Part shown: positions 29,229 to 62,641 of the stretch, one piece after another
Layout: every line of letters begins with the position of its first letter
Position numbering within the stretch: position 1 is the first letter of the stretch
Source: Phytopythium helicoides
Lineage: Eukaryota; Oomycota; Peronosporomycetes; Pythiales; Pythiaceae
Length of the DNA stretch: 64,000 nucleotides
Direction: 5' to 3'
NCBI GenBank assembly: GCA_024867545.1
Contig: JANFNE010000018.1
Span: forward strand, 124,001 to 188,000
Made by a program: the position numbers and the translations under genes
Notes under the pieces: generated by a model
Told to the model about the DNA's origin: nothing
The model's database searches: none
The model's input: the letters and a program-made list of their open reading frames with translations, nothing else

Positions 29229-29798
29229 ATGTCGACGGCCCACGCTCCGCTCATGCCTCGCCTGACGCCCATTGCCATGGCTCCGACGCTCCCATCCCGG
29301 GCCTCGGCGCCGCTGTCGTTCCTCGAGACCGTCGACCACGTTGAGATCAACGAGACCGTCGAGCGCGACGGCGTCGTGTACTACGTGCTCGACGTGTACC
29401 TCAAGCACCACTCGAGCCGCATCCCGACCAACAAGAGCGAGCAGACGCGCTTGAACCCGTCGCAGCCCGACTACCGCGTCGAGCATCGCTTCAACGACTT
29501 TGCCGACCTGCGCTACCAGGTCTGGAGCTACGCGCAGCGCAAGCACGCCACCAACGCCACGTGCGGCTACTGCGACGAGTACATGCACTTCATCGTGCAC
29601 GCCATGAATCAGCCGCGGCTGCTCGTACGCATCGGCACGGGCGTCAACAAGCGCAAGCACCTGCTCGCGAGCTTTTGCAACGAGTTCATCGCCATGGCCG
29701 TCGGCGCCAAGACGGCCTCGCGCTCGCGCAACCTCTCGTGCGACGGCTACCTCGCCATCCCGTACATCGTCGAGCGCTTCTTCCGCAAGCGCGTCTAA
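29229..29798 (+). CDS. PX-like domain protein PX01 (first of the array)
   Basis: 189 aa, no intron, no signal peptide or membrane segment. The core runs VDHVEINETVERDGVVYYVLDVYLKHH, then SRIPT at 63-67, HRFNDF at 86-91, the C-G-Y-C pair at 112-115, KRKHLLASFCNEF near 141-153 and CDGYLAIPYIVERFF from 171. The RF/NDF element plus a beta-rich N-terminal half is the PX (phox homology) pattern, a phosphoinositide-binding fold. The CxxC lies where PX domains have the proline-rich loop and helix. It is closest in layout to PX02. The start is the first ATG after an oomycete initiator. Membrane recruitment is inferred. Confidence 0.85.
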   Translation: MSTAHAPLMPRLTPIAMAPTLPSRASAPLSFLETVDHVEINETVERDGVVYYVLDVYLKHHSSRIPTNKSEQTRLNPSQPDYRVEHRFNDFADLRYQVWSYAQRKHATNATCGYCDEYMHFIVHAMNQPRLLVRIGTGVNKRKHLLASFCNEFIAMAVGAKTASRSRNLSCDGYLAIPYIVERFFRKRV

Positions 29799-31575
29799 GC
29801 CAAGCGCCAGGCACTCGCCAAGCCACCGCCATCTATTTACATGCAACTGGTCGAAGGTTGCGCCCGGCTGCCTGCCTCCCGACGCCTCCACTTCGTCGGC
29901 GAGCCACCGCGGCATGAGGCCGATCAGCTTCACCGCTCCCTAGGTATTTATTTAGTAGGTATCGAAATGGAAAAACGACACTTTTCACAACATGTTGAAA
30001 ATTTCTGGCTTTTTTCCGAATTGTGGCTGCCGATCTGACTTGGGACATGCTGATTTCTGTAAGGGCAGACCATTGTGGTAAATTTACAGATGTTTTTTGT
30101 CATATTGTAAAGACAAATTGTGACAACGCGTGTAGCCATCACCATGGTTCAGTTCACGCGCAGGCTTGCGCTCGTTGAAGCAGTCGGTTGCGCGTCATCT
30201 TCTCGCCCTCAGCGAGAACACACCAGTTGCACCTTCGTTCTCGTGAATTGCGATGTCCGCCCTTCATGGGGCGATCCATGTCCGCCCACCGATCCTTTGC
30301 ACCGTTCCTGCCACAATCCGCAGCGTCTTTGAGCGACTTGAATGAGAGTCCAATCCCGCGTGTTTTCGTACCTTGTCCGGCGTTCGCGCCGCAAACACGC
30401 TCGTCTGGCTTGCTTCTCTACCCTGTCCGACATTGAAGGTCGGTGTTTGTATGTGTGATTCAGCTCCATGCGCCAAAGCCACTGCTGATCCACTCAGAGT
30501 ACAGTACGAGCACCGAAGAAGCCTTCCCGCTTCGGTGCGAGCACATCTATGGCGTGCACCATGCAAGGTGTATGCTTTGAGGGGCTTCAGTTTGCATCGA
30601 TCGACTAAAGGGGCACATGCGCTTCCCAGCAATCGAGCTCACAGCGGCGGAGCCTCCAGCTGATTGAAAAAGGCTTGCTGACACCCGTGATTGCTCAGCG
30701 CACCGAAATTCGACCGTTTCGAGAAGGCAAGCCACTACTGTATCGCTGATGACATCGCATTACGAATAGCTTGCGCGCTCATCGAAATGCGCGCTTTAGT
30801 GGCCACCTCGAGTCCAGACCACAGCAGCCACTTTTCCCTGACGCCACTGCAGGCAGCACAGAGAGTGAGCCTCGATATCCCAGGAAGCGCAAGCGCGCTC
30901 ACCCTCGTTGAAAAGTGTTGCTCTCGGGCTTCAAGCGAGCAAATTTTTGCCGTACCTTGAGCTCTCGGGCGATCTGCTTGCTCGCCTCTGCGTTGGAAAG
31001 CCGATACGATGGAGACGCCCTCGCCTCCACCCAAGGCACGGGTCTGCTATCTGATTATGTCGCTAATGTGGCGTCGATCGACAAGAGACGAGGAAGGCGA
31101 CCGTCGCGCAGTGATGGCTCTGGAGTTCACTATGCACACTGTGGCAATGTCCACCGAGGCAAAATTCAGACTCCGAACTCATCGCCAGCCGGCCACTAAA
31201 TAATTTTGGCTCGCGAACACAAACGCGGCGTCCTCGGTCGTCTGCATAGTGAGCGGCAGTGCGCAACGTCGCCAACTGGACCAGGTTGAGGTTTGGTCGG
31301 CTTCTGCGCCATTCCTGCAGGCATTTTTTGCTCGCACCGGGTGTTTTGCCCCACAGGTCCATCGAATGCTTTTCAGAGTTGGGGCCAGCTGAAAATGGCA
31401 CGCAGCAAGGGCTTGGCGCTGCAGACCGCTGCTGCGATAGCGCTCTCTGGCCTCTTCCGCGCCGATCGCCCAATGCTCCAGGTGGGGCAATGCTCAGTCT
31501 CAAACTTGACGAGCAGTGCGCAGCAGCACAGCAGCCCCTGCTGCCTGCCCCTATTTATATATTAAAGTAGCAACC
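29799..31575. other. Intergenic 1.8 kb between PX01 and PX02
   Basis: AT-rich just after PX01 (29940-30120), then mixed sequence with only short unrecognised frames. A TATA-like stretch TATTTATATATTA at about 31553-31565 lies just ahead of the PX02 start. Confidence 0.4.
31553..31565 (+). promoter_or_regulatory. TATA-like A/T stretch ahead of PX02
   Basis: TATTTATATATTA, 11 nt before the ATG. It is too close to be a normal TATA box for this ATG unless the leader is very short, so it may be part of the leader. Confidence 0.3.
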
Positions 31576-32142
31576 ATGTGCCGCTACTGGCCTGCACCTC
31601 GCACGCCTCCGCTCGAGCCGTTCAGCCTCGTGCCAACGCGGTCGTCAAGCGCCGTGGAGCCCATCGGCGTTCTCGAGAAGATCGACCGTGTTGAGATCAG
31701 CGGTTTCGACAAGCGTGGCGGTGTCGTCTACTACGATATTGACGTATTTCTCAAGCAGCACAAGAACCGCATCCCGACCAACAAGCGACTGAGCACTGAG
31801 CGACGAGAGAAGCCCGACTACACCATCCAGCGCCGATACAGCGACTTTGAGCAGCTGCGGTACAATGTGTGGCTCTACGCTCAGCGGCGACACGACGGTG
31901 GCAAGTCCTGCAAGTACTGCGACGCATACATGGACTACATTGTGTACTCGTTCGCGCAGCCGAGACTCATCATCAAGCTCTTTGGACGCGGCAAGGGCCT
32001 GCGCCAGCGGCTCTTTCAGAAGTTTAGCAACACGTTCAAAGACCTCGCGATTGGCGGCAAGCAACGAGTCCGATACTTGATGTGCGACGGCTACCTCACA
32101 ATCCCGTCGCTGGTCGAGCGCTTCCTGCGAGAGGACGTGTAG
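31576..32142 (+). CDS. PX-like domain protein PX02
   Basis: 188 aa, single exon. It carries one of the most canonical PX cores of the set: IDRVEISGFDKRGGVVYYDIDVFLKQH, NRIPT at 64-68, RRYSDFEQLR at 86-95, C-K-Y-C at 112-115 and the terminal CDGYLTIPSLVERFL from 170. The consecutive RRY places an arginine and an aromatic where p40phox-type PX domains contact phosphatidylinositol 3-phosphate. The spacing of all motifs is the same as in PX01 within one residue, so these two are recent paralogues that diverged mainly in the first 35 residues. Confidence 0.87.
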   Translation: MCRYWPAPRTPPLEPFSLVPTRSSSAVEPIGVLEKIDRVEISGFDKRGGVVYYDIDVFLKQHKNRIPTNKRLSTERREKPDYTIQRRYSDFEQLRYNVWLYAQRRHDGGKSCKYCDAYMDYIVYSFAQPRLIIKLFGRGKGLRQRLFQKFSNTFKDLAIGGKQRVRYLMCDGYLTIPSLVERFLREDV

Positions 32143-33513: not shown

Positions 33514-34167
33514 ATGATGGAGAGCCCCGTGCACGGGAGGGCGCTGCCCCGCGGCGACTCGCTCAAGGAGCTGCAGCCGCTGCGCATGTGGCCCTGCCAG
33601 TACACGCGCGCGTCCGACTCGCTCGCGTTCCTCAAGACCGTCGACCGCGTCGAGGTCAGCGGCGTCGTCAAGCGCCACGGAGGCCTGCACTTCGTCTTCG
33701 ACGTCTACCTGCACAACCCCGAGGTCCGCATCCCCACGAGCCGGCTGTCCATCACGCGCAAGTCGTCGATCGCCGACGAGCGAGAGGCGCGAGAGGCGCC
33801 GCCGCCGCCGCCCAAGGAGCCCGACTACCAGGTCGAGCGACGCTTTGCCGAGTTCGAGAAGCTGCGCTACAACATTTGGGTGCACGCGCAGCAGCCACGC
33901 CCGCGCAGCGGATGCGTCTATTGCGAGGACATCACGGCCTACGTGGGCGACTACAACCGCAAGCCGCCGACCATCCGCGACCGACTGCTCTCGACGCGGT
34001 CGCGGCAGCAGGAGGTCATGGAGGTCTACATCAACAAGATGATCACGCTCGCCATCGGCAAGGCCGGCGACGGACAGCGCTCGCCCACGTGCCACGGCTT
34101 CGACCACATCCCCAACCGCCTCGTGCGCTTTTTGAAGAAACGCAGCGTCATCGAGACGCTCCACTGA
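33514..34167 (+). CDS. PX-like domain protein PX03
   Basis: 217 aa, single exon; two adjacent ATGs (33514, 33517). Core: VDRVEVSGVVKRHGGLHFVFDVYLHN, VRIPTSR, a proline run in the 90s, RRFAEFEKLR at 109-118, C-V-Y-C at 134-137 and CHGFDHIPNRLVRFL from 193. The basic-aromatic pair (RRF) is kept. The insert between SRIPT and RRF is longer than in PX01 and PX02 (Arg/Glu-rich, then six consecutive prolines). An extra tail KKRSVIETLH follows the usual end. Confidence 0.85.
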   Translation: MMESPVHGRALPRGDSLKELQPLRMWPCQYTRASDSLAFLKTVDRVEVSGVVKRHGGLHFVFDVYLHNPEVRIPTSRLSITRKSSIADEREAREAPPPPPKEPDYQVERRFAEFEKLRYNIWVHAQQPRPRSGCVYCEDITAYVGDYNRKPPTIRDRLLSTRSRQQEVMEVYINKMITLAIGKAGDGQRSPTCHGFDHIPNRLVRFLKKRSVIETLH

Positions 34168-35703: not shown

Positions 35704-36519
35704 ATGCCGAGTCTTTCCAACCTGAGGACGGCGAGGCCGACATCGGCGGCGACGACCAACGAAGGAGACCGCAATCCCGCGCGCGAGCCAGCTGTCTTCG
35801 TCTGGGGGGACGATGACGACGATGCTCACCACCACCACGGTCGCCACGACCACCACGGCCACCTCGGCCACCATAGCCACCATAGCCACAAGAAGCAGGA
35901 GGCGGAGGAGGGCAAGATGCCGACGCTGCTGCCCAAGCGTGTGGCGCCCAAAGACTACTACGCGCCTGCGGCGTCGCTGCAGAAGATCGAGCGCGTGGAG
36001 ATCCGGTCCACGAAGCTCATCTCGGGCGTGGTCTTTTACGTGGTGGACGTCTTCCTGGTGCACCCGACGAGCCGCATCCCGACGCTCAACCTGCAGCAGC
36101 AGCAGCAGCTCAAGCAGCAGCAGCAGCTCAAGAAGCAGCAGCCGAGTCCTGCGTTGAAGCGCCGCGAACCCGACTTCCGCGTGCTGCGGCGCTTCAGCGA
36201 CTTTGACAAGATGCGCAGGCACGTGGGCCGCTTCGCGCGCGCGCAGCTCGCGGGCACGTGCGCCTACTGCGACGCGCTGCGGCTGTTCCTGGCCACGTGC
36301 TTCTCGGCGCCCGTGCCGCTCGTCAAGCTGCTGCGCGTGAGCCCGGCCGCGCGCATGCCCATGCTCGAGGCCTTTCTCAACCGCGCCGTGCAGCTCGCCA
36401 TCGGCCGCGCGCGCGCCGGCGGCCACCACGCGCGCCTGCCGCACCAGTCCAACTGCGCCGGCGTGCGCGCCGTGCCGACGCTCGTCGACCAGTTTCTGAA
36501 GGCAAGGTGGCTGGTGTGA
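35704..36519 (+). CDS. PX-like domain protein PX04 with His-rich and Gln-rich segments
   Basis: 271 aa. Before the PX core there is an acidic then histidine-rich segment (WGDDDDDAHHHHGRHDHH and onward, residues 34-62; at least 14 His), which could bind metal. The core is IERVEIRSTKLISGVVFYVVDVFLVH, SRIPT at 123-127, then a Gln/Lys repeat (CAG-rich DNA, residues 131-146), RRFSDFDKMR at 162-171, C-A-Y-C at 186-189, and CAGVRAVPTLVDQFL near the end. The Gln tract lies in the same variable loop between SRIPT and RRF that differs in every copy. Confidence 0.85.
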   Translation: MPSLSNLRTARPTSAATTNEGDRNPAREPAVFVWGDDDDDAHHHHGRHDHHGHLGHHSHHSHKKQEAEEGKMPTLLPKRVAPKDYYAPAASLQKIERVEIRSTKLISGVVFYVVDVFLVHPTSRIPTLNLQQQQQLKQQQQLKKQQPSPALKRREPDFRVLRRFSDFDKMRRHVGRFARAQLAGTCAYCDALRLFLATCFSAPVPLVKLLRVSPAARMPMLEAFLNRAVQLAIGRARAGGHHARLPHQSNCAGVRAVPTLVDQFLKARWLV

Positions 36520-37148
36520 CCGACCGTCACAGAACCGAGTCCGAACCGGTTTGCAGTGGTACCTGTGGTAGGCGATAGCGCCAGTCGACGGCTGCTTTCG
36601 GTCGCGCATTCAACCGAGCGCGACGCCGCGACGCAGAGAGCTGCGCGCGCATGCAGGGGACATGCAGGGGGCGGGCAGGGGCGGCGTAGACGCGGCTGGG
36701 AGCGCGCTGGTGGCCACGAGGCGGTGTCTCGCACGCTATAACTTATGAGACGGATGCGTAAGTATCGTAATGAATTCCAAGTGTATAAGTATAAGCGGTC
36801 TTGCTTGGATCAAGTCAAGCGCATTCTGGTGCAGCGACATAAGCATACGCGGGGTCCTCTGCACATCGATGACAACCACGCCCCGTCCCACTTTCCCCAT
36901 TCGCATTCACCGCAACTCTGACCAATCCCATCGTTGCAATCGACAAGTTCAACCTCTTCTCGCTTATGATTGGCCGCTGCCGCCTCTCCTCGCGCTTCCA
37001 TTGGCCAAAAACCCTTTCCGACCCACCAGAGACAAGCCCCCCCCCCCTTGACACGCATGCAAGCCCCGCCGCGCATGCATGCAGCCGAGCGGCAGCCACT
37101 CGGCAACTCGCCCGCCAGCGCGCAATCCTCAGTCCCCCGCTCTCTCCA
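36520..37148. other. Intergenic between PX04 and PX05
   Basis: 629 bp with a C10-type run near 37038-37048. No additional gene seen. Confidence 0.4.
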
Positions 37149-37763
37149 ATGCCCGCGACGACGCCCGCGACCCTCGTGCTGCCTTCGCTGCGCGCCGTGC
37201 GCCTGCTGCCCGCGCGCCACTCGCGCCACCTGCGCGCCGTCATGCGCCTGCGCCAGCTGCAGGCCGTGCGCTGCCAACGCGCCACCAAGCGCGGCGGCGC
37301 CACGCGCTTCCAGCTTGAAGTGTTCTCGACCCACCGCGCCAACTCGCGGCTGCCCGCCGGGTGGAGCGCCAAGCGGCTGCCTGGCGCCGAGGGCAGCCAG
37401 ATCGCGACGCAGCGAGCGCCAGACGGCGTCGTCGAGTGCTCGTTCGCGCAGGTGGCCGAGCTCCGCGAGCAGGTGTACCAGCTGGCGCTGGAAGCACACC
37501 CCGACAAGCGCTGCGACTTCTGCACCGAGCTCTGCGACTACATCCTGCTGGGTTTGCTGCAGCCCGGCGCGCCGTCCACCAAGCTCGCGCCGACGTCCGT
37601 GCGCGTGCGCTCGGTCGACAAGTTCGTCAACAAGCTGCTGCACATGGCCACGGCCGCGACCTCGCCGCTGAGCGTGGAAGAGCCCTGCAGCTGCCAGGAG
37701 CGCATCCCGAGCCTTCTGTGCGAGCTGCTGCAGCTCCCCAACGACCAAGAGCAAGCCGCGTGA
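37149..37763 (+). CDS. PX-like domain protein PX05 (degenerate core)
   Basis: 204 aa from the ATG at 37149. It keeps the family frame: a Leu/Pro-rich N-terminus, FQLEVFSTHRANSRLPAGW (the SRIPT equivalent is SRLPA), ECSFAQVAELREQVYQLALEAH, C-D-F-C at 122-125, and a terminal CSCQERIPSLLCELL. The Arg-aromatic pair of the PX motif is replaced by CSF and the following DF is QV, so lipid contacts expected of a PX domain are missing. It shares the YQLALEAH helix with the central copies, so it may be an intermediate form. Confidence 0.75.
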   Translation: MPATTPATLVLPSLRAVRLLPARHSRHLRAVMRLRQLQAVRCQRATKRGGATRFQLEVFSTHRANSRLPAGWSAKRLPGAEGSQIATQRAPDGVVECSFAQVAELREQVYQLALEAHPDKRCDFCTELCDYILLGLLQPGAPSTKLAPTSVRVRSVDKFVNKLLHMATAATSPLSVEEPCSCQERIPSLLCELLQLPNDQEQAA

Positions 37764-38294: not shown

Positions 38295-38828
38295 TCAGTT
38301 CTGCCGCAGGAATGCCGTCAGGATGTGCACAAACTCCTGGTGGGCGTCATCGCCGTCGCTGAGTTGGCTCGCAAAGCGCAGCAGCTGATTCATGAACGCG
38401 GCGAGCGGCTCCATCTGCAGCACGGCAGCGCCATCCCACTTGCGGTGGAGAAGGCGCGGCCGCTCCCAGCACATCGAGAGGTAGTGCGCGACGCAGCGGC
38501 AGTGGTCGCAACTGCGCGAGTGTGAGGTCACACACTTGTCCAGCTTGGCGCGCAGCTTTCGGAGAGCGCCAAAGTCGGTGCGGACCGAGAAGGCAAGCAC
38601 TCGCTCAGAGATAGCATCGTCAACCTGACTGGTGCTCGCAGCAGCAGTCGGAACGATGCTCGAGGCAATGGGGGAGCCGGGGGCGAAGAGGTACACCTCG
38701 AGTGTAGCAGCGAGCGGCTTTTTGCTGTCTGCGATGGCAGCGATTTCGAGGCCCGGCTCAGCTGTCCGTGGCTGGCGCTGCTCGTGGAATACGGGTTGGG
38801 TCGGCTTGATGGACAGCGACTGGAGCAT
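38295..38828 (-). CDS. PX-like family member PX06 (most divergent, reverse strand)
   Basis: 177 aa from the ATG at 38828; the frame extends upstream only from a GTG. Membership rests on layout: an N-terminal LQSLSIKPTQPVF like the L-x-P-L...P motif of other copies, LAATLEVYLFAPGSPIASS in the strand region, RTDFGALRKLRAKLDKC in place of RRYSDF..LR, a Cys cluster CDHCRC at the CxxC position, LAAFMNQLLRFA, and a C-terminal EFVHILTAFL. The terminal Cys is absent. Possibly a neofunctionalised or decaying copy. Confidence 0.65.
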   Translation of the reverse strand: MLQSLSIKPTQPVFHEQRQPRTAEPGLEIAAIADSKKPLAATLEVYLFAPGSPIASSIVPTAAASTSQVDDAISERVLAFSVRTDFGALRKLRAKLDKCVTSHSRSCDHCRCVAHYLSMCWERPRLLHRKWDGAAVLQMEPLAAFMNQLLRFASQLSDGDDAHQEFVHILTAFLRQN

Positions 38829-40251
38829 GGCTGGTTGCTTGAGGTGGGCACTTGGGCGTGGCAAGTCGAAGGAAGATTCAAAAGTGGAGTCTGGCGGTCC
38901 TGCCTCTCTGTTTGGACAGCAGAAGGCAGGCGAAGGACACGCACCGGACTGAGGCTCGCACGGCGCCACTTGCGACGAGTCGGCACCACGCACGTGACTA
39001 GCCCTCCATACAATCCGCCATACGATCGCCGGTGAGGTGCAGCCACTCTAATCCAAAGCCGCCGCTTGTTTAGATGGAACCAACTGCAAGCGAGCGCTGC
39101 GCGTGACTCGCCTTCAGAAACCCGTTTGTGCAGTCGCGTCGCACGGAATGCTTAAATGAATGCGATAACTTCACAAGCAACTGCAGATAATACAGGTCCA
39201 TTTAAATAGGTTTCTCGACAAAGTATGCCACCATGTTCTAGATGTATCGAGTAATGGAGTGTGCTAGACGTGTGGCCAGCAGACCGGCCAAACTTCAGAA
39301 TCTCACCGACGCGCCGCGACTGTCGCATGTGAGTGGGCTGCAGACGAAAGCCTGGGGCCAATCAGCGCGCTGCCAAGGCACCGGACCGCCTCTGTGGTTC
39401 AACCACATAGAGCGACTGCTTCTCGCGCATGCCCTTGTGTCTGCGTGGGGCTGATGATGCCACGCCCATGGCGTTTGGGATTGGCGGGGGGATCTAGGTG
39501 GCGAGTGAGCGCTGCTTCGAAACGCAGGTAGCCACAGGCTGCAGAAAACACCGCGCTGCTAGGACATGGAACAGTCGCATAGTGTTGCGCAGCTGGCGGC
39601 ACGGCAATGCCGCCGCGGCATTGAGTAGCTCCCGGTTAGCCCTACATAAGGGGCACTGTCCTCTACGCAAGGCAGGTACGGACAGGTTTCCACTGACGTG
39701 GTGCGTTGAGTGGTGGCAAAGCACCGGGTCGGAAGCAAAACGAGACCGCGCGCGCGATGGCCTGACCGGCCGCGTCCGTCTCGCAGCAACGAGGCTACCC
39801 CCCGTGACTCGCAGTCAGCCAGCCAGTCAACAGCCGGATCGACCTGGAATCAGCGGCAACACGCCGACCGAGTGGACGCTGTGGATCGGAGCGTGGTCTC
39901 CGGTAATCCAGCTGATTAGAGGGGTCTGTGAGCGCCAGGCCACTTCAGAAACGCAACATCATGTCGGCCTTCGCCTCGGTGCAACTCGGCCAAACCATGA
40001 AATTCAACTAAAGCAGCACCACACTTGCGTCTAGAATGGCCATACTTTCGCCAAGCGAAATTCCATCCGTGCTTCTCATTCTCAGATTGGACGTTTGACT
40101 TGTCTCGAGTATGCGAGGAATGGAACCGTCATCGGGCGATGGTGATGGCGAGAGCGCCTGCTTTTCTTCCTTCTCCTCACTTGAACAATCGCGCCGCCCC
40201 GCTCACGTTGCCCCCCACTCCTGCTTTTTCTCCCCCCTTCGACCGCTCGCC
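38829..40251. other. Intergenic 1.4 kb between PX06 and PX07 (divergent)
   Basis: Shared upstream region of two head-to-head genes. An initiator-like TCTCATTCTCAGATT occurs at about 40074-40088 ahead of PX07. Short frames near 39500-39790 contain a vaguely hAT-like ASERCF string but no supportable element. Confidence 0.4.
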
Positions 40252-40845
40252 ATGGTGACGGACGTCAAGCTGTCTGCGCTACGCCCGCTATCGCCCGTGC
40301 CGCTGGCCCCGCAGTGCGTCTCGCAGCGCGGCCAAGTGGTCATGGCGCTGGGCAAGATTGACCGCATCGTGGTGCGGCGCCGCCCCGGCGAGCGCGACGT
40401 GACGGGCACGTACATCATGGAGCTCGTGCTGAGACCCGAGAGCCGCATCCCGACCAGCAACCTGCGCTCGCGGCTGCCCGTGCTGACGCGGTGCTCGTCG
40501 TCGGCGGCGGCCCCGAGCGGGTGCTCATCGCTGCTCGTCGAGAAGCGGCTCGAGGAGTTCGGCGAGCTGCGCACCACGCTGTACAACATCGCGTACGAGG
40601 CGCACAACGTCAACTTCTGCGCCTTCTGCAAGAGCGTGGTCGAGTGGGCCGTCTGGGGCCAAGTCGAGCCCGGCGCGCTCGCGCGGCTCGTCATGAACGA
40701 GGACAAGATGGCGCGCACGCTCGAGAAGTTCGCGGCCGAGATCCTCGACATCACGGTGCACTACCCGGCGCCCGGCAGGTCTCTGCGCTGCAGCGCCCTC
40801 GCGGACATCCCGCCGCTCGTGCACGCCTTCTTCTTCGGCGCATAG
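40252..40845 (+). CDS. PX-like domain protein PX07
   Basis: 197 aa. It starts the central subtype: an N-terminal motif LRPLSPVPLAPQCVSQRGQV, IDRIVVRRRPGER...YIMELVLRP, SRIPT at 64-68, KRLEEFGELR at 98-107 (Leu where PX has Tyr/Phe), YNIAYEAH, C-A-F-C at 123-126, VVEWAVWGQVEPGALARLV, and a terminal CSALADIPPLVHAFFFGA. The LWG/VWG-x-x-x-P-x-x-LAR segment after the CxxC is the subtype's own marker. Its end is partly duplicated at 40952-41085. Confidence 0.82.
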   Translation: MVTDVKLSALRPLSPVPLAPQCVSQRGQVVMALGKIDRIVVRRRPGERDVTGTYIMELVLRPESRIPTSNLRSRLPVLTRCSSSAAAPSGCSSLLVEKRLEEFGELRTTLYNIAYEAHNVNFCAFCKSVVEWAVWGQVEPGALARLVMNEDKMARTLEKFAAEILDITVHYPAPGRSLRCSALADIPPLVHAFFFGA

Positions 40846-41320: not shown

Positions 41321-41926
41321 ATGAGCTCGCTCAGCTCCAATCCGAAGACATGCAGTCTACGTTCGCTTTCGGTGGAGCCGATTGTGCCGAGCAAAGTGTC
41401 GCAGTACGGCCACGCCCTGGCCGCGCTCAGGACCATCGACAGCGTGCGTGTCGCTCACAACTGCGACCACTCATCAGACTCCAAGTACGTCGTGCTCGCA
41501 TACTCGAGCAAGAAGCCTCAGAGCCGCATCCCAGTCAACAGCGTCATCATCGCGGGATGGATAGAGCAATGCGACTCGATGACGCCTGCGAGAGAGAGAA
41601 TCCCCGTGTCGTCTCTGCCCAAGTCGCTCGCTGCCTTCTCAGCTCTGCGCCAGCAGGTAGAAGACATCATCTATGCTTCGCATCAGACAACGCTGTGCGG
41701 CTACTGCAAGAAGATGATGACCTACGTGCTCTGGGGGAACCTGCCTCCCAGCTCAATCAAGCGGATAGTGTCAGGAGGTGGCGACAAGGAGCTGCTACAG
41801 TCTCTCTCCAGGTTCCTCGAAGAGCTCATGCCTCTGGTGGTGTCGGGTAGCACATCGTCTAGCGATCACACGTGTCCTTCTCGCGCTAGAATTGTGCTTG
41901 TGGTGCACGCGTTCCTCTTCAACTGA
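41321..41926 (+). CDS. PX-like domain protein PX08
   Basis: 201 aa. N-terminal LRSLSVEPIVPSKVSQYGHALAALRTID, then VRVAHNCDHSSDSKYVVLAYSS, SRIPV, and PKSLAAFSALRQQV in place of RRYSDF..LR: both the basic-aromatic pair and the acidic residue are gone. C-G-Y-C at 126-129, MMTYVLWGNLPPSSIKRIV, and a terminal CPSRARIVLVVHAFLFN. The fold determinants (hydrophobic spacing, F and LR) persist, but the expected lipid contacts do not. Confidence 0.8.
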   Translation: MSSLSSNPKTCSLRSLSVEPIVPSKVSQYGHALAALRTIDSVRVAHNCDHSSDSKYVVLAYSSKKPQSRIPVNSVIIAGWIEQCDSMTPARERIPVSSLPKSLAAFSALRQQVEDIIYASHQTTLCGYCKKMMTYVLWGNLPPSSIKRIVSGGGDKELLQSLSRFLEELMPLVVSGSTSSSDHTCPSRARIVLVVHAFLFN

Positions 41927-42297: not shown

Positions 42298-42882
42298 ATG
42301 TCGTCCACGGCCGCTCCGCTGCGTCGTCTAGCTCCCGAGCCGCTGCTGCCGCACCAGCCTTCAGAGCGAGGCTGTGCTCTCGTGTCACTCAAGAAGATCA
42401 GCGAGATCCGAGTCGTGCGCAACCCAGACCGCAGCTCGGAGCGCAAGTTTGTCGTCCAGGTGTTTTCGGGCTTGAGCCGCCTTCCTACCTCCAGCTCCCG
42501 CGCATTGGGGGAATACCAAACAACCAAGACGGCATCAAGCGGTAAAGTCCCATCGTCCAGTATGGCCAAGGAGCTCGACGACTTTGACAAGTTGCGGGAC
42601 GAGGTGTTCAAACTCGCACACGACGCGCACGAAAACCTAGCGACTTGCGCATTCTGCCAGCGCTTGGTCGACTACACGTTTTGGGAGAACCACCCACCGA
42701 ACGCACTCGCACGGATCCTGTTTTCGGACGACACCTCGGTGGCGGCATCACTTTCCAAGTTCGTCAGCGAGCTTGTGGTAATTGTTGAGGGAGGCTGCAC
42801 TCCTTCATCTTCTGAGCGCAGTGTGTGTAGTGGTCGTGCGCAGATCCCTCTTGTGGTGCACGCCTTCCTGAGTGAAGCATAG
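42298..42882 (+). CDS. PX-like domain protein PX09
   Basis: 194 aa. N-terminal LRRLAPEPLLPHQPSERGCALVSLKKI, then IRVVRNPDRSSERKFVVQVFS, SRLPTS, AKELDDFDKLRDEV, HDAHENLATCAFC with the pair at 117-120, VDYTFWENHPPNALARIL and a terminal CSGRAQIPLVVHAFLSEA. It is closest to PX10, with which it shares IRVVRNPDR and the LDDF core; the PX aromatic is Leu. The start is supported by the initiator element immediately upstream. Confidence 0.83.
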   Translation: MSSTAAPLRRLAPEPLLPHQPSERGCALVSLKKISEIRVVRNPDRSSERKFVVQVFSGLSRLPTSSSRALGEYQTTKTASSGKVPSSSMAKELDDFDKLRDEVFKLAHDAHENLATCAFCQRLVDYTFWENHPPNALARILFSDDTSVAASLSKFVSELVVIVEGGCTPSSSERSVCSGRAQIPLVVHAFLSEA

Positions 42883-50485: not shown

Positions 50486-51301
50486 ATGGCTCCACGCATC
50501 GACTCCGACTGCATCGATCCGTTGCCGAGGACTCCGACCGAGTCGACTGATGGATCCGACAAGTCAATCCACACGCTCCCTTCGCTGACTCCGATGGCGT
50601 TGGAACCGGCATGTGCGTCGGAACGCGGACGCGCATTGCTCGCGCTGTCGTCTATCGACGCTATTCGCGTCACCAGCCACCCGACCCGGGATGCGTTTAT
50701 CCTCGACGTTTACACTGGCAGCAGTGGGCTCTCGCCAACGTGCATCGAAGGTTGTGGATCTTGCCAGACCGATAGCCACATCCCGACGCGGCTGCGCGAT
50801 CGCCACGCGAGCATCCCGATGCACCAGCGATTCCTCCTTCCAAGTTGCGACTGCGAAGGTGCATCTGACAGCGAGTGTTGCGACCGAAGCCCTGCTATGA
50901 CGACCGAGAGGCAGCTCGGCGCATTCATGAAGCTGCGCGACGCGCTCTACAATGCGGCGCTGGCATCCCACATGCGTGTTTTGACGTGCGACTTTTGCCG
51001 CGAGGTTATTGACTTTGCGCTGTGGGCACATCGCGTACCGGTGGGATTCGGAGCACGCGTGCTCTTCCACCGCGATCGTGAGATGGCTCGTGTTGCTGAC
51101 GTCCTCTCAGCCTTCCTGAGTGAGCTGCTCGCCCGCACCCTGCGTCCACCATGCGTTGACCGATATGCGGCTGCTGCTGCGCTCGGAGATCCCATCGCGG
51201 CGGCTGGCGTGCCCTGGTGCCGAGCCCAGTCACGAGTGCCCGTTGTAGTGCATGAGTTCCTGATGGCAGGGTTTCATAGTAGAGCGACTTCGAGACTGTA
51301 G
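50486..51301 (+). CDS. PX-like domain protein PX14, C-terminus rewritten by a hAT insertion
   Basis: 271 aa. N-terminal LTPMALEPACASERGRALLALSSID, IRVTSHPTRDAFILDVYTGSS, a Cys-rich loop (CIEGCGSCQ, CDCEGASDSECC), SHIPT, ERQLGAFMKLRDALYNAALASH, C-D-F-C, VIDFALWAHRVPVGFGARVLF and WCRAQSRVPVVVHEFLM. The last codons, from 51267, lie inside the transposon: AGFHSRATSRL is encoded by its terminal repeat. If the element and one target copy are removed, the frame would read HEFLMEMANASR and stop, a tail length typical of the family. The conserved VVHEFL end is intact, so the protein may still work. Confidence 0.85.
   Translation: MAPRIDSDCIDPLPRTPTESTDGSDKSIHTLPSLTPMALEPACASERGRALLALSSIDAIRVTSHPTRDAFILDVYTGSSGLSPTCIEGCGSCQTDSHIPTRLRDRHASIPMHQRFLLPSCDCEGASDSECCDRSPAMTTERQLGAFMKLRDALYNAALASHMRVLTCDFCREVIDFALWAHRVPVGFGARVLFHRDREMARVADVLSAFLSELLARTLRPPCVDRYAAAAALGDPIAAAGVPWCRAQSRVPVVVHEFLMAGFHSRATSRL
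51259..51266. repeat. 8-bp target-site duplication, left
   Basis: CCTGATGG immediately before the left TIR; the identical octamer follows the right TIR at 54481-54488. Confidence 0.93.
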
Positions 51302-51387
51302 GTGTCTTACTGCTTACTACGTACTCCGCTCCCAGGCTGAACCTACAGTATAACTGCTAACCGCACACGTGAATCCCTGATGTAGTA

Positions 51388-54153
51388 CTACTGTAGTAGC
51401 GAAGCAGTACTGCTTTCGACCTCCTGGCGATTTACTCGGAGCAGAAGCTGCTTCTCCGCGCGGTCGTTGTCTGTCCGTGATCGTGAAGGTGCCATGACGA
51501 TCCCAGCCGTGGAGAAGACTCGTTCTTGGTATGCCGTCGACGATACCTTGCCGAGCCATACCCTTGCAAGAGTCGAGATCATTGGAAACTGAGGCTCTCC
51601 TACTTCTCTAAACCAACGCAGAATATCGACTCTACTGAGCTCTGGCAAATTCCAGCATAGCATATCATCACCCCTCTTAAAGCACATTGTCTTTGACAGC
51701 ACAGCTCGATCAGCTTTGGGGTCCTGTGAAAGTGCTACATTGAGCCATTCCTCTTGAAACACCATCCAACGTTTGAAGTCTGCAATAGCCTCTCCTCTCA
51801 GTTCGGACTCTTGAAATCCAACTTTCGTTCTAGAAGGAACTGGTGCACCAAAAAACACTGTGGGAGACACGGTCGATGCTGTTGGTGGCTCCAGGATCCG
51901 CTTTTGCTTGGACTGAGTAGGTGATGAGATGGTGGTGAGTGGTGTCTCTTCGTTGAGTTCCTTGCCTCGAAGACGCATGTGCTCGGCGATGATTAGATCC
52001 TCGGCTTGTTTGAGTAACTTTTCTCTATGTAAATTCGGGCATCCTGTACCGTCAATAATTGCAGAGGCACAGTTCTTGGTTCTAGGGTCGAGAAGAAGAG
52101 CTACAGCCTCGTGAATAGATGGTGTAGGAAAGCGTTCGCGAATTTGTCCTAGGCATCTCGCGAGACAAGTTCGAGCAGGCTTTGACAGGGATTCAATACT
52201 GACATCCTCCCGCTCATGTTGATCTTCTGTTGTTGGACCACTGAGCGATGGTCGCATGACTAAGCATCTGAATGACTTGCACTTCAATTGCTGTTCAGCC
52301 ATTGTTCGGTACAGCACCATATATGACGCGACTAGTGTTGATGACTGTACATGAGATAGAGCAAGCTCAGCCAAGTGCTGGGTGATACCTTCCATCTCTC
52401 GAACCAGGGTCCATTCGCTGTCCGAGATATCTATGAACGGGTTTGAGGTATCCTCTTCCATGAAATAATACTTCATTGCTGTGTAGTTCACGATTGAGCG
52501 CCGCATCAACCGGCATGTCGACGCTACACGTACATCAACATCGACTAATGGCGCAATGCGAGGCAGGTTGTGAGCTTCCTGAATCTTCACCAGTTTGCTA
52601 GTCCTCTTTGGTGTTGAGAAGAAGTTGTTTAGTGCTCTTAGTTTTCGCACAATTGCCACTCCTTCAGGTAGAGCTCCACCAGTTGTCACTACTTTCCGTT
52701 CACCAATGATAACCGTTCCGTCGTCATCTTGCCTTGTTGACTTTGTTGTCTTGACGTTGTCTTTCAACCCAATGCCGTAGCCGATACAGAGATTCAACAA
52801 GTGCATTCGGCAATCCTCCTGATCTGTCTCCTCAAAGTAGTTTGCGACGGCACGAGCACTAGCTGTGGTATCGGACATCGTCCACCGTGCAAAGTCTCTA
52901 ATGTTAATGCCGTAGTGCTCAATGCAGCGATTCTCAATTAGTAACGAAACATCGCGACTGGTATGGCCGTCATTCTTCACTGATGCTAGCAAAGCAATGT
53001 GACGAAAACGCCAAGTGTGGTCGATAAAGGCCACAGATGCACCAATTACGCCAGTGCTCTTGTTGCAGGTCCAAGCATCGTGTATCAGCGTAAGGAACTT
53101 CATACCTCCCAGGTGATGGCTCTCTTCATCTAACAATGTGGAGACTGCAGTCGTGAACAGCTTAAATCTCCCCTCGGTAGAGTCGTTGTAAGTGTCTCTA
53201 GCCAAAATTTTTTGCTGTGTGTTGCCGCTAACCACCCGTATCATGTTCTGGAAAGCAGTTGTGGTCACCGTGTTGTATGCTAACCCATCGTCAGTTAGCC
53301 ACTCCGCGATCACTGTTCGAATCAGACTACCCGACGGTCGAAAGTACCTATCAATCTTCTTCTGTCTCTTCTTCAATGGCCGAGAAGTTTCTCCATCAGT
53401 ATCAAGCTGCTTTGCTGTTGACTCGTCTTTATCATCAACATCCCCGTGGCGCTTATGTATGTGCTTTGAGAGTTCATCATGGCTACGACTTATTGCTGCC
53501 GCTGCTCGATCTGTAGCTGAACTCAATGCTGCGACAGCAGCAGGATGCGCCGAATGGCGTCGACGCAGGTGTAAAAGTACGTTCGATCCATTTGATCCAC
53601 TGCATACAGCTCGTTTCCACGCACTATCGCGCTTGTGCCCTCGCTTCGATACTTGCTCAACGCAGAGGAGACACAGATGCGAGCCAATGCTTTTGCCATG
53701 ATGAATCTTCTTTTCTAGAACATACACCACCTCCCACATCTTGTGTCTCCCAGCGGTATACTTGAAGTACCGTACTTCCGCTGGTACTGTCCGTCTGCAT
53801 ACAGCAAGTAGTCGCTGAAGATTGTATGTGTCAGTGCTAGGTAGTTCGTCACTCGACATCGTAGTAGCGCTGCTGCTAACTAGGTCTTGAGTGTCATCGA
53901 CTTCAGAGCTCGAAGACATATCACTTGACTCGGTGTTCGTAACGAGAACCGTCTCCCGAGCCATGACACTTCCTTTATTAGTTGAAGCCGGAGGGTTGAT
54001 AACATCAGCGCAGTGTTTGCTACAAACTCGAACGTTTAGCTCTCCTTCCATGTACTTGTTGCTGCAAATGTGATGGACCGCACGCGTGCAATTGGCGCAT
54101 GGTTCAACAGCGAGATCAGCCCCTAGCTTGCAGTTCTTGGCTTGACAGCTCAT
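51388..54153 (-). CDS. hAT-family transposase
   Basis: 921 aa from the ATG at 54153 (MSCQAKNCKLG). The frame also runs upstream to a TTG. The N-terminus has a Cys/His cluster (CQAKNC...CANCTRAVHHIC...CSKHC), then a BED-type zinc finger near residues 135-200 (HLCLLC...LLHLRRRHSAH). The middle is the RNase-H-like catalytic region (FLTLIHDAWTCNKSTGVIGASVAFIDHTWRF with a likely catalytic Asp; later LLDPRTKNCAS). The C-terminal hAT dimerisation domain reads FPMISTLARVWLGKVSSTAYQERVFSTAG. No internal stop or frameshift was seen. It catalyses cut-and-paste transposition with 8-bp target duplications, which is what the flanks show. Confidence 0.92.
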   Translation of the reverse strand: MSCQAKNCKLGADLAVEPCANCTRAVHHICSNKYMEGELNVRVCSKHCADVINPPASTNKGSVMARETVLVTNTESSDMSSSSEVDDTQDLVSSSATTMSSDELPSTDTYNLQRLLAVCRRTVPAEVRYFKYTAGRHKMWEVVYVLEKKIHHGKSIGSHLCLLCVEQVSKRGHKRDSAWKRAVCSGSNGSNVLLHLRRRHSAHPAAVAALSSATDRAAAAISRSHDELSKHIHKRHGDVDDKDESTAKQLDTDGETSRPLKKRQKKIDRYFRPSGSLIRTVIAEWLTDDGLAYNTVTTTAFQNMIRVVSGNTQQKILARDTYNDSTEGRFKLFTTAVSTLLDEESHHLGGMKFLTLIHDAWTCNKSTGVIGASVAFIDHTWRFRHIALLASVKNDGHTSRDVSLLIENRCIEHYGINIRDFARWTMSDTTASARAVANYFEETDQEDCRMHLLNLCIGYGIGLKDNVKTTKSTRQDDDGTVIIGERKVVTTGGALPEGVAIVRKLRALNNFFSTPKRTSKLVKIQEAHNLPRIAPLVDVDVRVASTCRLMRRSIVNYTAMKYYFMEEDTSNPFIDISDSEWTLVREMEGITQHLAELALSHVQSSTLVASYMVLYRTMAEQQLKCKSFRCLVMRPSLSGPTTEDQHEREDVSIESLSKPARTCLARCLGQIRERFPTPSIHEAVALLLDPRTKNCASAIIDGTGCPNLHREKLLKQAEDLIIAEHMRLRGKELNEETPLTTISSPTQSKQKRILEPPTASTVSPTVFFGAPVPSRTKVGFQESELRGEAIADFKRWMVFQEEWLNVALSQDPKADRAVLSKTMCFKRGDDMLCWNLPELSRVDILRWFREVGEPQFPMISTLARVWLGKVSSTAYQERVFSTAGIVMAPSRSRTDNDRAEKQLLLRVNRQEVESSTASLLQ

Positions 54154-54465
54154 TTCAGTAAAGCGCGGCGGAAATTGTGTTAGGTTTTGCTTGAGGTCTA
54201 GCTGGAAAGGGCTGAAATGTGGCTGGGTTGCAGTCGTCAGCTCGCCATTTATTCTTGTTGCGCACAAGAGGATACCGAGGCAACCAAAGCTCGCAGCTTT
54301 GAGCGCTCTAAAAGTAGCTGCAGCAAGTATTACCAGTTTAGATGCATTATCATCCAGAGTAGTGATGCATGAGAATCATGCTGCACCAGAATCCGAAGAC
54401 GTAGTGTAGTTGCAGGTGATACAGTATAGTATCCTTTTGTAGCTTGATCGTCCCTACTTTTGGAA

Positions 54466-54480
54466 TACTATGAAACCCTG
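54466..54480 (-). repeat. hAT right terminal inverted repeat
   Basis: TACTATGAAACCCTG, exact reverse complement of 51267-51281; the identity ends after 15 bp. Confidence 0.93.
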
Positions 54481-55848: not shown

Positions 55849-56547
55849 ATGTGCGTCGAGCTCGCCGACTGCCCCGCGCTCTCGCCCAAGCCCAGCGCCG
55901 CGTGCCTGCGGCCGCTCGGCCGCCTGCCCAGCCTCGCGCCCACGGCGCTCGTGCCGTCCTGCGTCTCGCCCCGCAGCCAGGCGCTGGCCGAGCTCGCCAA
56001 CGTCGAGTCGGTGCGCGTGCGCGCGCGCGGCGACGTGTTCGTGGTCGAGCTCTTCTCCAAGCCTGCGCCGCGCTCGGAGCGGCGCATCCCGCTGCCGCTG
56101 GCCGCCAGCTCCCGCGTGGGCGCCAGCTCGCCCTCGTCGCCCCGGTCGACCGGCAGCGCGAGCCCCAGGGCCAGCATCAAGATGGCGTCGCCCAGCGACC
56201 CCACGGCGCCGACCGTCGCGGTCGAGAAGCGCCTCGCCGACTTCTCCGACCTGCGCAACCAAATGTACCTGGGCATCATGGCGGCCCACGTGCGCCAGCC
56301 CTTCTGCGCCTACTGCCGAGAGCTCCTGAACCACTCCATCTGGGGCTACCGCGTGCCCACGGGTCTTGGCGCGCGCTTGCTGGGCATGCGCGACCGCGAG
56401 GACTCGCGCACGGTCGCGCTGCTCACGCAGTTCGCCACCGAGCTGCTCGAACGCACGCTCGCCACCGACACGCATGCGTCCACGTGCCACTGCAGCTCGC
56501 AGACCGACGTGCCCGTCATGGTGCGCGACTTCTTCTTCGGCCAGTGA
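55849..56547 (+). CDS. PX-like domain protein PX15
   Basis: 232 aa. N-terminal LRPLGRLPSLAPTALVPSCVSPRSQALAELANVESVRV, VFVVELFSKPAPRSERRIPLP, a Ser/Pro-rich loop, EKRLADFSDLRNQMYLGIMAAH, C-A-Y-C, LNHSIWGYRVPTGLGARLLGMRDRED, LTQFATELLERTL and a terminal CHCSSQTDVPVMVRDFFFGQ. The region after CxxC (WGYRVPTGLGARLL versus WAHRVPVGFGARVL in PX14) makes PX14 and PX15 sister genes now separated by the transposon. Confidence 0.83.
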   Translation: MCVELADCPALSPKPSAACLRPLGRLPSLAPTALVPSCVSPRSQALAELANVESVRVRARGDVFVVELFSKPAPRSERRIPLPLAASSRVGASSPSSPRSTGSASPRASIKMASPSDPTAPTVAVEKRLADFSDLRNQMYLGIMAAHVRQPFCAYCRELLNHSIWGYRVPTGLGARLLGMRDREDSRTVALLTQFATELLERTLATDTHASTCHCSSQTDVPVMVRDFFFGQ

Positions 56548-56756: not shown

Positions 56757-57668
56757 TCAGATGATGCCGAGCGAGGACGAGAACGGCTTGCGCAGGAAGT
56801 CGTCGACGAGCGCGACGGCCTTGACGCGCGCCTCGCATTCAGCAGGCGCCAGCTTCTCGTTGTTGCTCGCTAGCTGCTCCTCTTCCTCCTCCTCCAGCAG
56901 GTCGCTGAAGCGCGCAGCCAGATCCAGCGCATCATTGACGAGGCTGGCGAGCAGCTCTCTGCGTGAGCGCTCGGTCGAGAAGACGCGGCGCAGCTGCAGC
57001 GCCTGGTACCGCCGGCGCGCTCCCAGCGCGTGCAGCTCGCGGCAGTCGGCGCACTTGGTTGAGTCGTGCGTCGGCGAGGGCTCCACGAGCGCGCGCAGCC
57101 TCGAGCGCAGCTGCGCGAACTCGCGGAAGCGGTGCTCGACGCGGTAGTCGGACTCTCGCTCGGCGCGCATGACCTCGTCCAGCGCCTCCCTCGAGAGCGC
57201 CGAGCCCGCCGCGCTGTAGGCGCAGTCCGACAGCCGCTGGCGCTCCGAGCGCCGCTGCAGGTACACGTCCACCACGTACAGCGAGTGGCCGTCGCGCCGC
57301 AGCTTGGCCGACACCTCGACGTACTCGACGCGCTGCAGCGGCGAGAAGGAGCTGGCGCGGCCGCGGCCCCTCGCGCGCGCGCCCGCCGTGCTGGTGCTGC
57401 TCTGCGTCGACATGCGGCGGCACGCGGCGGCCGACGGCGCCGAGACCGCCAGCGCCACGACCTGCGCGGCCGTGGGCGTCAGCACGGCGCTCTCGGGCTC
57501 CTCGGGGGCCTCGGCGGTCGGCTGCGGCTTGACGAGCGCGTCGGCGTCGCCCTGCGGCTCGCGGGGGCCGAGCGTCAGCAGCGTCATGGCGCGCGGATCG
57601 TCGAATGGCGCCGCCGCGCTCAGCGAAATGGCGTGGCGTGAACATGGCGCATGCTTGCGGGACGGCAT
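56757..57668 (-). CDS. PX-like domain protein PX16 (reverse strand)
   Basis: 303 aa, the longest copy. About 105 N-terminal residues are Ala/Pro/Ser-rich. The core is LQRVEYVEVSAKLRRDGHSLYVVDVYLQRRSERQR (no SRIPT), YRVEHRFREFAQLRSRLRALVEP, C-A-D-C with the pair present, RRVFSTERSRRELLASLVNDALDLAARF, an acidic EEEEEE stretch, AECEARVKAVALVDDFLRKPF. It belongs with the outer, canonical subtype (HRF-x-EF like PX01). Tail-to-tail with PX15, 209 bp between stops, including a GGT/GTG-rich simple-sequence patch near 56633-56690. Confidence 0.82.
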   Translation of the reverse strand: MPSRKHAPCSRHAISLSAAAPFDDPRAMTLLTLGPREPQGDADALVKPQPTAEAPEEPESAVLTPTAAQVVALAVSAPSAAACRRMSTQSSTSTAGARARGRGRASSFSPLQRVEYVEVSAKLRRDGHSLYVVDVYLQRRSERQRLSDCAYSAAGSALSREALDEVMRAERESDYRVEHRFREFAQLRSRLRALVEPSPTHDSTKCADCRELHALGARRRYQALQLRRVFSTERSRRELLASLVNDALDLAARFSDLLEEEEEEQLASNNEKLAPAECEARVKAVALVDDFLRKPFSSSLGII

Positions 57669-59404: not shown

Positions 59405-60187
59405 ATGACTCGAAGGCGGCGCTCATTCCGCAAGTCTCTCGCCAGGCCGCACGCCTCGCCCGCCCTCATGCCGTCGCTCATGCTCCAAGACGCGGCCGAC
59501 AGCCAGCCGCTGCGCCCGCTGCAGCTGTTGACGCGCAAGCGCTCGGCGCTCAACGTGTCGGACGCCACGGCCGCCAGCAAGGAGCTGGCGGTCTCGACCA
59601 CTACGGCCGCCAGCAGCTCGGCGCTGCCGCACGCGCCGCCGCTCTCGCCCGTGGTGGTCGAGCCCATGCGCTGGTCGTCGGCGTCCAACTCGCTCACGTT
59701 CCTCACGACCGTCGAGCGCGTCGAGATCCGCGAGACGGTGCAGCGCGACGGAGTGACCTACTACGTGCTCGACGTGTTCCTCTTCCACACCAACTCGCGC
59801 CTGCCCACGTTCGTCAACAACCCGCGCCGCGCGTCGGCCGCACGCGTCTCGGCCTGCTGCACGCGCGCCGCCAGCGAGCCAGACTTCCGCGTCGAGCGCC
59901 GCTACTCGGACTTTGAGCGCCTGCGCGCGCAGGTGCGCTGCTGGGCGTGCATGGACGCCGTCGTCATGTGCGACTTCTGCGACAACATCACCAAGTACAC
60001 GCGCTTCGAGCCGCGCCAGCCGCGCTTCCTCGTCAAGATCGCCACCAACGTCGAGCAGCGCAAGCGCATCCTCGCCAGCTTCATCAACGACTTTGTGCTC
60101 ATGGCCCAGTTCTCGCAGCACCGCAATGTGCGCTGCGAGGCGCGCGAGCACGTGCCCACGCTCATCGAGTCGTTCATCCGCGACTGA
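59405..60187 (+). CDS. PX-like domain protein PX17
   Basis: 260 aa from the ATG at 59405; a later ATG at 59468 would give 239 aa. The frame upstream of 59405 opens from a TTG only. The N-terminus is basic then Ser/Ala-rich. The family motif LSPVVVEPMRWSSASNSLTFLTTVERVEIRETVQRDG leads into VTYYVLDVFLFH, SRLPT, PDFRVERRYSDFERLRAQV, C-D-F-C, FEPRQPRFLVKIATNVEQRKRILASFINDFVLMA and a terminal CEAREHVPTLIESFIRD. Together with PX02 and PX18 this is the most PX-like copy, with RRYSDFERLR fully canonical. Confidence 0.86.
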   Translation: MTRRRRSFRKSLARPHASPALMPSLMLQDAADSQPLRPLQLLTRKRSALNVSDATAASKELAVSTTTAASSSALPHAPPLSPVVVEPMRWSSASNSLTFLTTVERVEIRETVQRDGVTYYVLDVFLFHTNSRLPTFVNNPRRASAARVSACCTRAASEPDFRVERRYSDFERLRAQVRCWACMDAVVMCDFCDNITKYTRFEPRQPRFLVKIATNVEQRKRILASFINDFVLMAQFSQHRNVRCEAREHVPTLIESFIRD

Positions 60188-61868: not shown

Positions 61869-61978
61869 ATCTAGCACGCTGTCACGCGAGCAAGGGCAAC
61901 AAGGTCAAGTCAAGTGCTAATAAATGATAGGCGTCTATTGCTATGAGGATGTCTAAATACTTTGTCTGCTCTACTGTT

Positions 61979-62641
61979 CTAGTGCTCGGCGTGGTCCAGA
62001 AGGAACGCCTCGAGCAGTGCTGGCACAACGCGCTGTGCCTCGCAGTGACGGCCGCTGGTCTTGCTGACGCTGTGGCGACCCATCTTGACAAAGTCATTGA
62101 CGAACTTGTTGAGGATGGTCTTGCGCTTCTCGGTGTTGGCCATGAGCTTGACGAGGCTGCGCGGCTGCGAGCTCTTGAAGCGAATGTACGTGACGAACTC
62201 GACGCAGTAGCTGCACAGGCACACGGGCACCTGGCTGACGGCCTCGAGCACCTGCTCACGGAGCCGTTCAAAGTCCGAGTAGCGGCGCTCGACCTTGAAG
62301 GTCGGGTGAGCGGCGCATACAGTCTTGTCATTGTCGCTCGCAGGCTCGTTCAATTGGCTCTTGGGCAGGCGCGAGCGCGGCAGCGTGAGGAACACTTCAA
62401 GCGTGTAGTAGTCGACACCGTCGCGCGAGTGGGTCTCATTGATCTCGACGCACGCAATGCTGTCGAGGAAGCCGCGCGAGAGCGTCGTGTTCCATCGGCG
62501 GTGGCGCTCCAGGTCGAGCGCGAGGCTGCTCTCGACACCCTGCGGCGGGCGGACGGCCTCAACCGGAGCCGAGGCGACCACCTGGGCGCCGTGGTCCTTG
62601 GACAGCGGCGACAGGCAGCCGTGGTGCACTGAGACGGTCAT
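61979..62641 (-). CDS. PX-like domain protein PX18 (last of the array, reverse strand)
   Basis: 220 aa from the ATG at 62641; an upstream in-frame ATG (62911) is less likely. Core: FLDSIACVEINETHSRDGVDYYTLEVFLTLP, SRLPKSQ, FKVERRYSDFERLREQV, C-S-Y-C, YIRFKSSQPRSLVKLMANTEKRKTILNKFVNDFVKMG and a terminal CEAQRVVPALLEAFLLDHAEH. RRYSDFERLR is identical to PX17 and the segments around it match closely, so PX17 and PX18 are an inverted pair flanking the CDIN1-like gene. Confidence 0.86.
   Translation of the reverse strand: MTVSVHHGCLSPLSKDHGAQVVASAPVEAVRPPQGVESSLALDLERHRRWNTTLSRGFLDSIACVEINETHSRDGVDYYTLEVFLTLPRSRLPKSQLNEPASDNDKTVCAAHPTFKVERRYSDFERLREQVLEAVSQVPVCLCSYCVEFVTYIRFKSSQPRSLVKLMANTEKRKTILNKFVNDFVKMGRHSVSKTSGRHCEAQRVVPALLEAFLLDHAEH

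Follow-up and report, generated by a model that had tools for sequence, protein, structure and literature searches.

An array of 23 small PX-like genes begins in, and runs past the end of, a 64,000-nucleotide stretch of the genome of the oomycete Phytopythium helicoides (contig JANFNE010000018.1, here C11; the window analysed is C11:124001-188000 of a 49-Mb assembly in 100 contigs). We put at roughly 60% the probability that the proteins encoded by this array belong to an oomycete class of PX domains, here termed Cys-PX, that would be built around a structural zinc, with lipid binding kept in part of the array and a scaffold function in its central block. The data show homology, a predicted PX fold, conservation and purifying selection; zinc, lipid binding with its partial loss, and localisation are inferred. 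Within the window, 18 uninterrupted open reading frames (ORFs) span positions 29229-63145, and the 18 intronless genes proposed in a first-pass annotation of this DNA are all open, without interruption, where it had placed them. Its right-hand limit of 62641 proved too short: the last ORF in the window reaches 63145, and five additional members lie directly past the window end at C11:188043-196185. When the window and the 20 kb that follow it were scanned with a hidden Markov model (HMM), the total came to 23 genes (g01 to g23), with no 24th member in those 84 kb, one frame at E 0.69 being disregarded. Start codons are uncertain for some of the genes; the g18 ORF, for example, is 388 amino acids (aa) long in the window versus 220 aa for its partner in the second copy of the array on contig C72. 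More relatives occur elsewhere in the genome (C11:217818, C11:247300, C11:248325 and C33:270545), together with a piece at C4:1471058 that is interrupted by a stop codon. The array's right end carries two copies of one 183-aa ORF in opposite orientation, about 1 kb apart (L009:8897-9448 (-) and L010:207-758 (+)), and this pair is an inverted duplication.

The most constant feature of the array is a C-x2-C motif. In alignments, the Arg of the LR motif and both cysteines of C-x2-C form fixed columns in 18/18 window genes and 23/23 array genes, and the motif stands downstream of [LM]R in every one of the 18, as had been described; any C-x2-C at all would be expected in about 3.7 of 23 shuffled array proteins. 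A distal cysteine (C3), originally reported for all members, is present in 17 of the 18 window genes and in 22 of the 23 array genes, with g06 as the sole exception. Other signatures ascribed to all 18 genes are less uniform: [SN]R[IL]P[TSAV] is found in 10 and RKxxL in three, and the full C-terminal motif is found in nine in its strict form and in 17 in a looser one. The string [RK][RK][YFL]x[DE]F-x3-LR matches none of the 18 as written, the real spacing between [RK][RK][YFL]x[DE]F and [LM]R being x2, with which 10 of the 18 match. The first-pass description is partly confirmed: its core holds, several of its motifs are looser than claimed, and the array is bigger than stated.

That these proteins adopt a PX-like fold, as was also proposed, is borne out by Pfam matches among array neighbours, by graded profile comparisons and by two AlphaFold models. 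The curated cut-off of the Pfam PX family (PF00787) is 21.6 bits, and it is passed by two array members, both outside the window (31.5 and 32.5 bits); g17 and g18 (Table 1) and g19 (18.4 bits) score below it, and the remaining 18 members have no PX match. Each of the six array groups tested by profile comparison aligns better with a Cys-PX profile (eight pieces plus P0058, a relative from Pythium insidiosum) than with a canonical PX profile (20 pieces), and the C-x2-C of the central block superposes on that of the Cys-PX profile. The AlphaFold models of g01 and g09 were built on alignments of 72 and 46 sequences, respectively, that drew array members from the window only. Both models show three strands followed by a helical part and match PX structures best, including the PX domains of Nischarin, PI3K-C2 gamma, Bem3, SNX14 and p40phox, and g09, a member of the central block, is PX-folded despite having no Pfam match. 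When the g01 model is compared with the PDB by Foldseek, ranks 1-26 are all PX, albeit above E 0.001. A search of the array profile against the sequences of solved structures gave nothing significant, the best match being RPL37A at E 0.23; sorting nexin-3 appears at E 0.46 through the RRYSDF stretch.

With PF00787 the array shares the order of strands and helices, a last helix ending in FL and, in part of its members, RR[YF]-x-[DE]F at the junction of strand 3 and helix 1 and (in 12 of 23 genes) the later-helix Arg of R-x-x-L. It differs in adding a C-x2-C insertion after helix 1, a Cys before the last helix and a His or Cys upstream of C-x2-C, and in its degenerate proline loop, where at most a proline remnant of the proline-rich (PPK) loop is kept (QPR in several members, other sequences in the rest, as judged by eye). 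Two zinc-finger families were also considered and rejected. A zf-BED match in g01 reaches 14.5 bits against a cut-off of 20.6 and covers residues 97-116 only, none is present in the other 22 proteins, and the relative P0007 scores 10.9 bits, below the same cut-off. A Pfam scan found no FYVE match in any of the 23 array proteins; the FYVE zinc finger resembles the proposed module in that zinc and phosphatidylinositol 3-phosphate (PI3P) would combine in one small unit (PMC8233823), and it has another fold than the array proteins.

The cysteines also extend to other PX genes of the same genome. It had been held that standard PX domains lack this set of cysteines, and the canonical PX genes examined do fit that description; however, C-x2-C lies between helix 1 and the proline loop in at least 11 of 67 other PX pieces, a lower bound because several pieces are partial or broken. 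This survey took in 67 of the 69 non-array PX matches (C97:11765 and C68:43742 were left out), with places judged by eye. The 11 pieces amount to eight distinct sequences, L063/L064 and L066/L113 being copies on two contigs and L075/L107 near-identical neighbours on contig C2. As in the array, the Cys-bearing genes L063, L066, L067, L068, L075, L076, L077 and L093 have C-x2-C at the same place and either a Cys or a further C-x2-C ahead of the last helix; unlike the array, they have FP-type proline loops (FPRR, FPKK, FPPR and others). Just before the last helix, at the place of the array's third Cys, a second C-x2-C occurs in five of the 11 pieces (L067, L068, L075, L107 and L076) and a C-x5-C in L093. 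The double C-x2-C is also present in P0058 from P. insidiosum; a search with L076 gave one match among 92 candidates, likewise from P. insidiosum, and its length rule may have excluded longer relatives. The five genes with a double C-x2-C are loosely grouped on their contig (G000:C2:25951-293067), with two near-identical copies at C2 289149 and 292705.

Because the Cys-PX pieces score 31-50 bits with Pfam PX, above the cut-off, the Cys-bearing genes outside the array are plain PX domains. In an alignment of L126, a fuller piece of L093, with KIF16B and a designed CISK PX domain, C-x2-C sits in an insertion of about 12 residues that both of the latter lack. With C-x2-C in this position in 11 of the 67 other PX pieces, the cysteines predate the array, and in the simplest history the array looks like a branch derived from the oomycete Cys-PX class.

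In the g01 model, C112 and C115 stand at the start of an inserted helix (113-125), C171 lies immediately before the last helix (173-185), and H106 ends helix 1 (88-107). The g09 model places C117, C120 and C177 in the same way, with H111 directly after helix 1 (93-110). A His at -4 to -6 of C-x2-C is found in 14 of the 23 array genes and a Cys at -2 or -7 in seven more (g17-g23), giving a candidate fourth ligand in 21 genes and in neither g03 nor g04; C-x2-C, C3 and a candidate fourth ligand occur together in 20. Among relatives outside the window, a His lies within eight residues of C-x2-C in 47 of 50, a count that covers 50 of 53 proteins, as P0016, P0038 and P0043 have no match to the search expression. 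C11:247300 has no His within eight residues and has a second C-x2-C instead, as is the case for the five pieces with a double C-x2-C, and within the Phytophthora group a second C-x2-C is also found in six proteins (P0027, P0028, P0029, P0032, P0033 and P0043). An invariant C-x2-C accompanied by either His or Cys is a frequent pattern at structural zinc sites. It is plausible that a metal (zinc) site formed by C-x2-C, the distal Cys and a His or Cys is the best reading of these cysteines, and this reading is strengthened by the upstream His or Cys in 21 of 23 genes and by the double C-x2-C of sister PX genes. We know of no PX domain with a built-in metal site.

Accordingly worded as a mechanism, the array proteins would be small single-domain PX proteins, probably cytosolic, of the oomycete Cys-PX class. 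Residues inserted after helix 1, ahead of the proline loop, would supply C-x2-C where an additional helix starts; a third Cys would immediately precede the last helix, and the His ending helix 1, a nearby Cys or the other half of a second C-x2-C would serve as fourth ligand. One structural zinc, we infer, would then clamp the last helix to helix 1 and to the inserted one. The literature searched, whose scope excluded preprints and most subscription papers, gave no account of PX domains with a cysteine or zinc site, and the accessible portions of PMC2837644, PMC8233823, PMC7409359 and PMC10380299 contain none.

The same cysteines could conceivably act as a disulfide or redox switch, with thioredoxin-like oxidation of C-x2-C altering membrane binding under oxidative stress. 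In redox proteins C-x2-C is a widely used motif, oxidative bursts are encountered by oomycetes, and a second C-x2-C in the sister PX genes would be in keeping with such a role. No signal peptide was seen by eye at the N-termini of the array proteins, however, so that they probably reside in the reducing cytosol, which speaks against disulfides; moreover, the third Cys and the upstream His or Cys are conserved as well, and the variation between His and Cys suits metal ligands better than a disulfide. On balance, we consider a redox switch unlikely.

Several observations weigh against the zinc-bearing PX reading. As many as 21 of the 23 array members fall below the Pfam PX cut-off, and with Foldseek alone the best PDB match of g01 stands at E 0.13, with nothing at E <= 0.001. 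Both model alignments contained PX-like relatives, including, in that of g09, P0058, which is a Pfam PX protein. In the profile comparisons, the central block gave a value of only 0.044 with the canonical PX profile alone, and g05 gave 0.029 with the Cys-PX profile and is convincing with neither. As for the ligands, g03, g04, g06 and C11:248325 are without the full set of four, and P0027 retains both a second C-x2-C and the upstream His, so the two are not clean substitutes for one another.

A separate matter is the residues that we take to be phosphoinositide contacts, namely the Arg and aromatic residue of R-[YF] and the later-helix Arg, with roles known from studies of p40phox. The equivalent of the key Arg is retained in 17 of the 23 genes and lost in g05, g06, g08, g09, g10 and g14. 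The aromatic residue (Tyr/Phe) that follows it is present in 14, with Leu in all nine genes of the central block (g07-g15), and none of these nine is among the 12 genes with the later-helix Arg. All nine retain the three cysteines, and the central block seems to have lost its phosphoinositide residues while the cysteines remain. Because the lipid residues are kept in most of the left and right blocks and lost in the centre, which retains the cysteines and, in its modelled member g09, the PX fold, most left- and right-block members would be expected to bind lipid and those of the central block to bind protein. Where both R-[YF] and the later-helix Arg are kept, as in most of the left and right blocks, PI3P-type lipids would probably still be bound on endosomes. 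Having lost the aromatic residue and the later-helix Arg throughout, and the first Arg in four of its genes, the central block would probably serve as a metal-stapled protein-binding scaffold.

It is tempting to go further and suggest that in such a zinc-stapled oomycete PX domain the metal-bearing insertion let the fold lose its lipid pocket, turning the array into protein-binding or membrane-coincidence readers with the metal site as their conserved core; this is possible, although we would not lean on it. Another proposal is that these are ordinary PX domains whose buried cysteines serve packing only, with no metal or redox role, and that they bind phosphoinositides full time in the manner of sorting nexins. 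Most members of the left and right blocks have indeed retained R-[YF] and the later-helix Arg, and UniProt names the relatives as plain PX domain proteins. Against this, the first two cysteines are fixed in 23/23 while the lipid residues drift, metal sites typically show such C-x2-C spacing paired with a second C-x2-C, and the insertion is missing from KIF16B and the designed CISK PX domain in the alignments with L126. A role in packing alone is, in our view, rather unlikely.

Selection on the array can be gauged from contig C72, which carries a collinear copy, about 91% identical (about 88-92% at the nucleotide level), that is read as a second haplotype or homoeologous copy. An open partner is present there for 22 of the 23 array genes, and the ratio of nonsynonymous to synonymous substitution rates (dN/dS) ranges from 0.07 to 0.51 with a median of 0.16 (22 pairs; g12 was left out because its partner would cross about 100 bases outside the sequence compared). 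On these grounds, the array genes look to be under purifying selection. A decaying array, made up of tandem-duplication fossils with function mostly gone, could account for the strong divergence of g05 and g06 and for the hAT-like element within the 3' end of g14; the open partners and their dN/dS values nevertheless largely refute it, and we give it almost no credence. The hAT-like element contains a transposase-like ORF at 51388-54153 (-), is missing from the C72 copy and replaces the last codons of g14. A transposon origin of the array genes was also considered and rejected, as the hAT-like ORF is an insertion without a counterpart on the second copy.

Relatives of the array are found in other oomycetes. 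A search with the g01 protein gave 47 relatives, including 30 from Phytophthora, two from Globisporangium and one each from Nothophytophthora and Peronosclerospora (by names), and C-x2-C is present in 44 of the 47. Many carry the UniProt label 'PX domain-containing protein'; such entries from Phytophthora and Globisporangium are related to g01 and g02 (with 47-61% identity to g01 for the named rows), are named by domain alone, and have a cysteine site without description in the literature searched. In a tree of 80 sequences (the tree and the residue table use 53 of the 58 fetched proteins, without P0042, P0044, P0046, P0047 and P0058), g02 groups with the Phytophthora megakarya protein P0041 at support 1.0, outside the clade that unites g01 with its own relatives (support 0.81), and for this reason the split between g01 and g02 probably predates the split from Phytophthora. 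Near-consecutive locus tags of relatives in P. ramorum, P. oleae and P. infestans, taken from names only, suggest that tandem copies occur there too.

Two relatives of the central block, P0050 and P0051, lie on contigs equal in length (40,296 bases) to that of P0001, the best match of g01, so another organism probably has the array as well. A profile search with the 23-member alignment gave 10 matches among the 8000 best word-sharing candidates and has little bearing on distribution. The suggestion that the family expanded locally in this lineage holds only in part, given that g01-type genes are found throughout Phytophthora and P. megakarya has a g02-type gene; it may still apply to the central block, which was sampled in close relatives only. 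PX domains of other architecture are described in PMC7409359, on an oomycete-specific gene joining RING and PX that is strongly induced by potassium in zoospores, and in PMC8233823, on P. sojae proteins that combine FYVE and PX; both architectures differ from that of the array.

Table 1. Array genes inside the window and the inserted element (window positions)
Feature	Position	Strand	Remarks
g01	29229..29798	+	PX-like, 189 aa; HRF...H-x5-CGYC...C-x6-IP; AlphaFold model
g02	31576..32142	+	PX-like, 188 aa; clusters with P. megakarya P0041
g03	33514..34167	+	PX-like; no fourth-ligand candidate in 8 upstream residues
g04	35704..36519	+	PX-like; no fourth-ligand candidate in 8 upstream residues
g05	36966..37763	+	Divergent; CSF replaces RRY; highest dN and dN/dS among the 22 pairs compared
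g06	38295..38828	-	Most divergent (lowest HMM score); no distal Cys
g07	40111..40845	+	Central block
g08	41321..41926	+	Central block; no Arg and aromatic
g09	42298..42882	+	Central block; no Arg and aromatic; AlphaFold model with PX fold
g10	43866..44510	+	Central block; no Arg and aromatic
g11	45364..46062	+	Central block
g12	46671..47591	+	Central block
g13	48792..49538	+	Central block
g14	50486..51301	+	Central block; final codons supplied by the hAT-like insertion
hAT-like element	51267..54480		3214 bp in array; 8-bp duplication CCTGATGG; inverted ends CAGGGTTTCATAGTA
g15	55849..56547	+	Central block
g16	56757..57668	-	Separate branch together with relatives P0052-P0056
g17	59405..60187	+	Right block; 17.2 bits with Pfam PX (cut-off 21.6)
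g18	61979..63145	-	Right block; Pfam PX 21.5 bits (cut-off 21.6); uncertain start

A few other genes of the window were noted left of the array. A pair of oppositely oriented Hsp70 genes, at 4091-6046 (-) and 13603-15558 (+), is identical at 1950 of 1956 bases and is contained in a 2.1-kb inverted repeat of 99.6% identity; the pair is a recent duplication or the product of gene conversion. A 1274-aa ORF at 9483-13307 (+) has several EF-hand matches and is overlapped from upstream by an ORF at 7619-9610 that may be part of the same gene. At 19584-23018 (+), a 1144-aa ORF joins a protein kinase and a RhoGAP domain (Pkinase 5e-53, RhoGAP 8e-17), to our knowledge an unusual combination, and a gene with the C-terminal part of the exocyst protein Sec15 (7e-33) is found at 23087-24031 (-).

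The PX domain is one of the most thoroughly studied lipid-reading modules. If the reading favoured here is true, a single array would offer a natural series that leads from lipid-binding PX domains to PX domains without the lipid residues, all with one conserved metal site, and the class would provide a marker for endosomal proteins of oomycetes, a group rich in plant pathogens.

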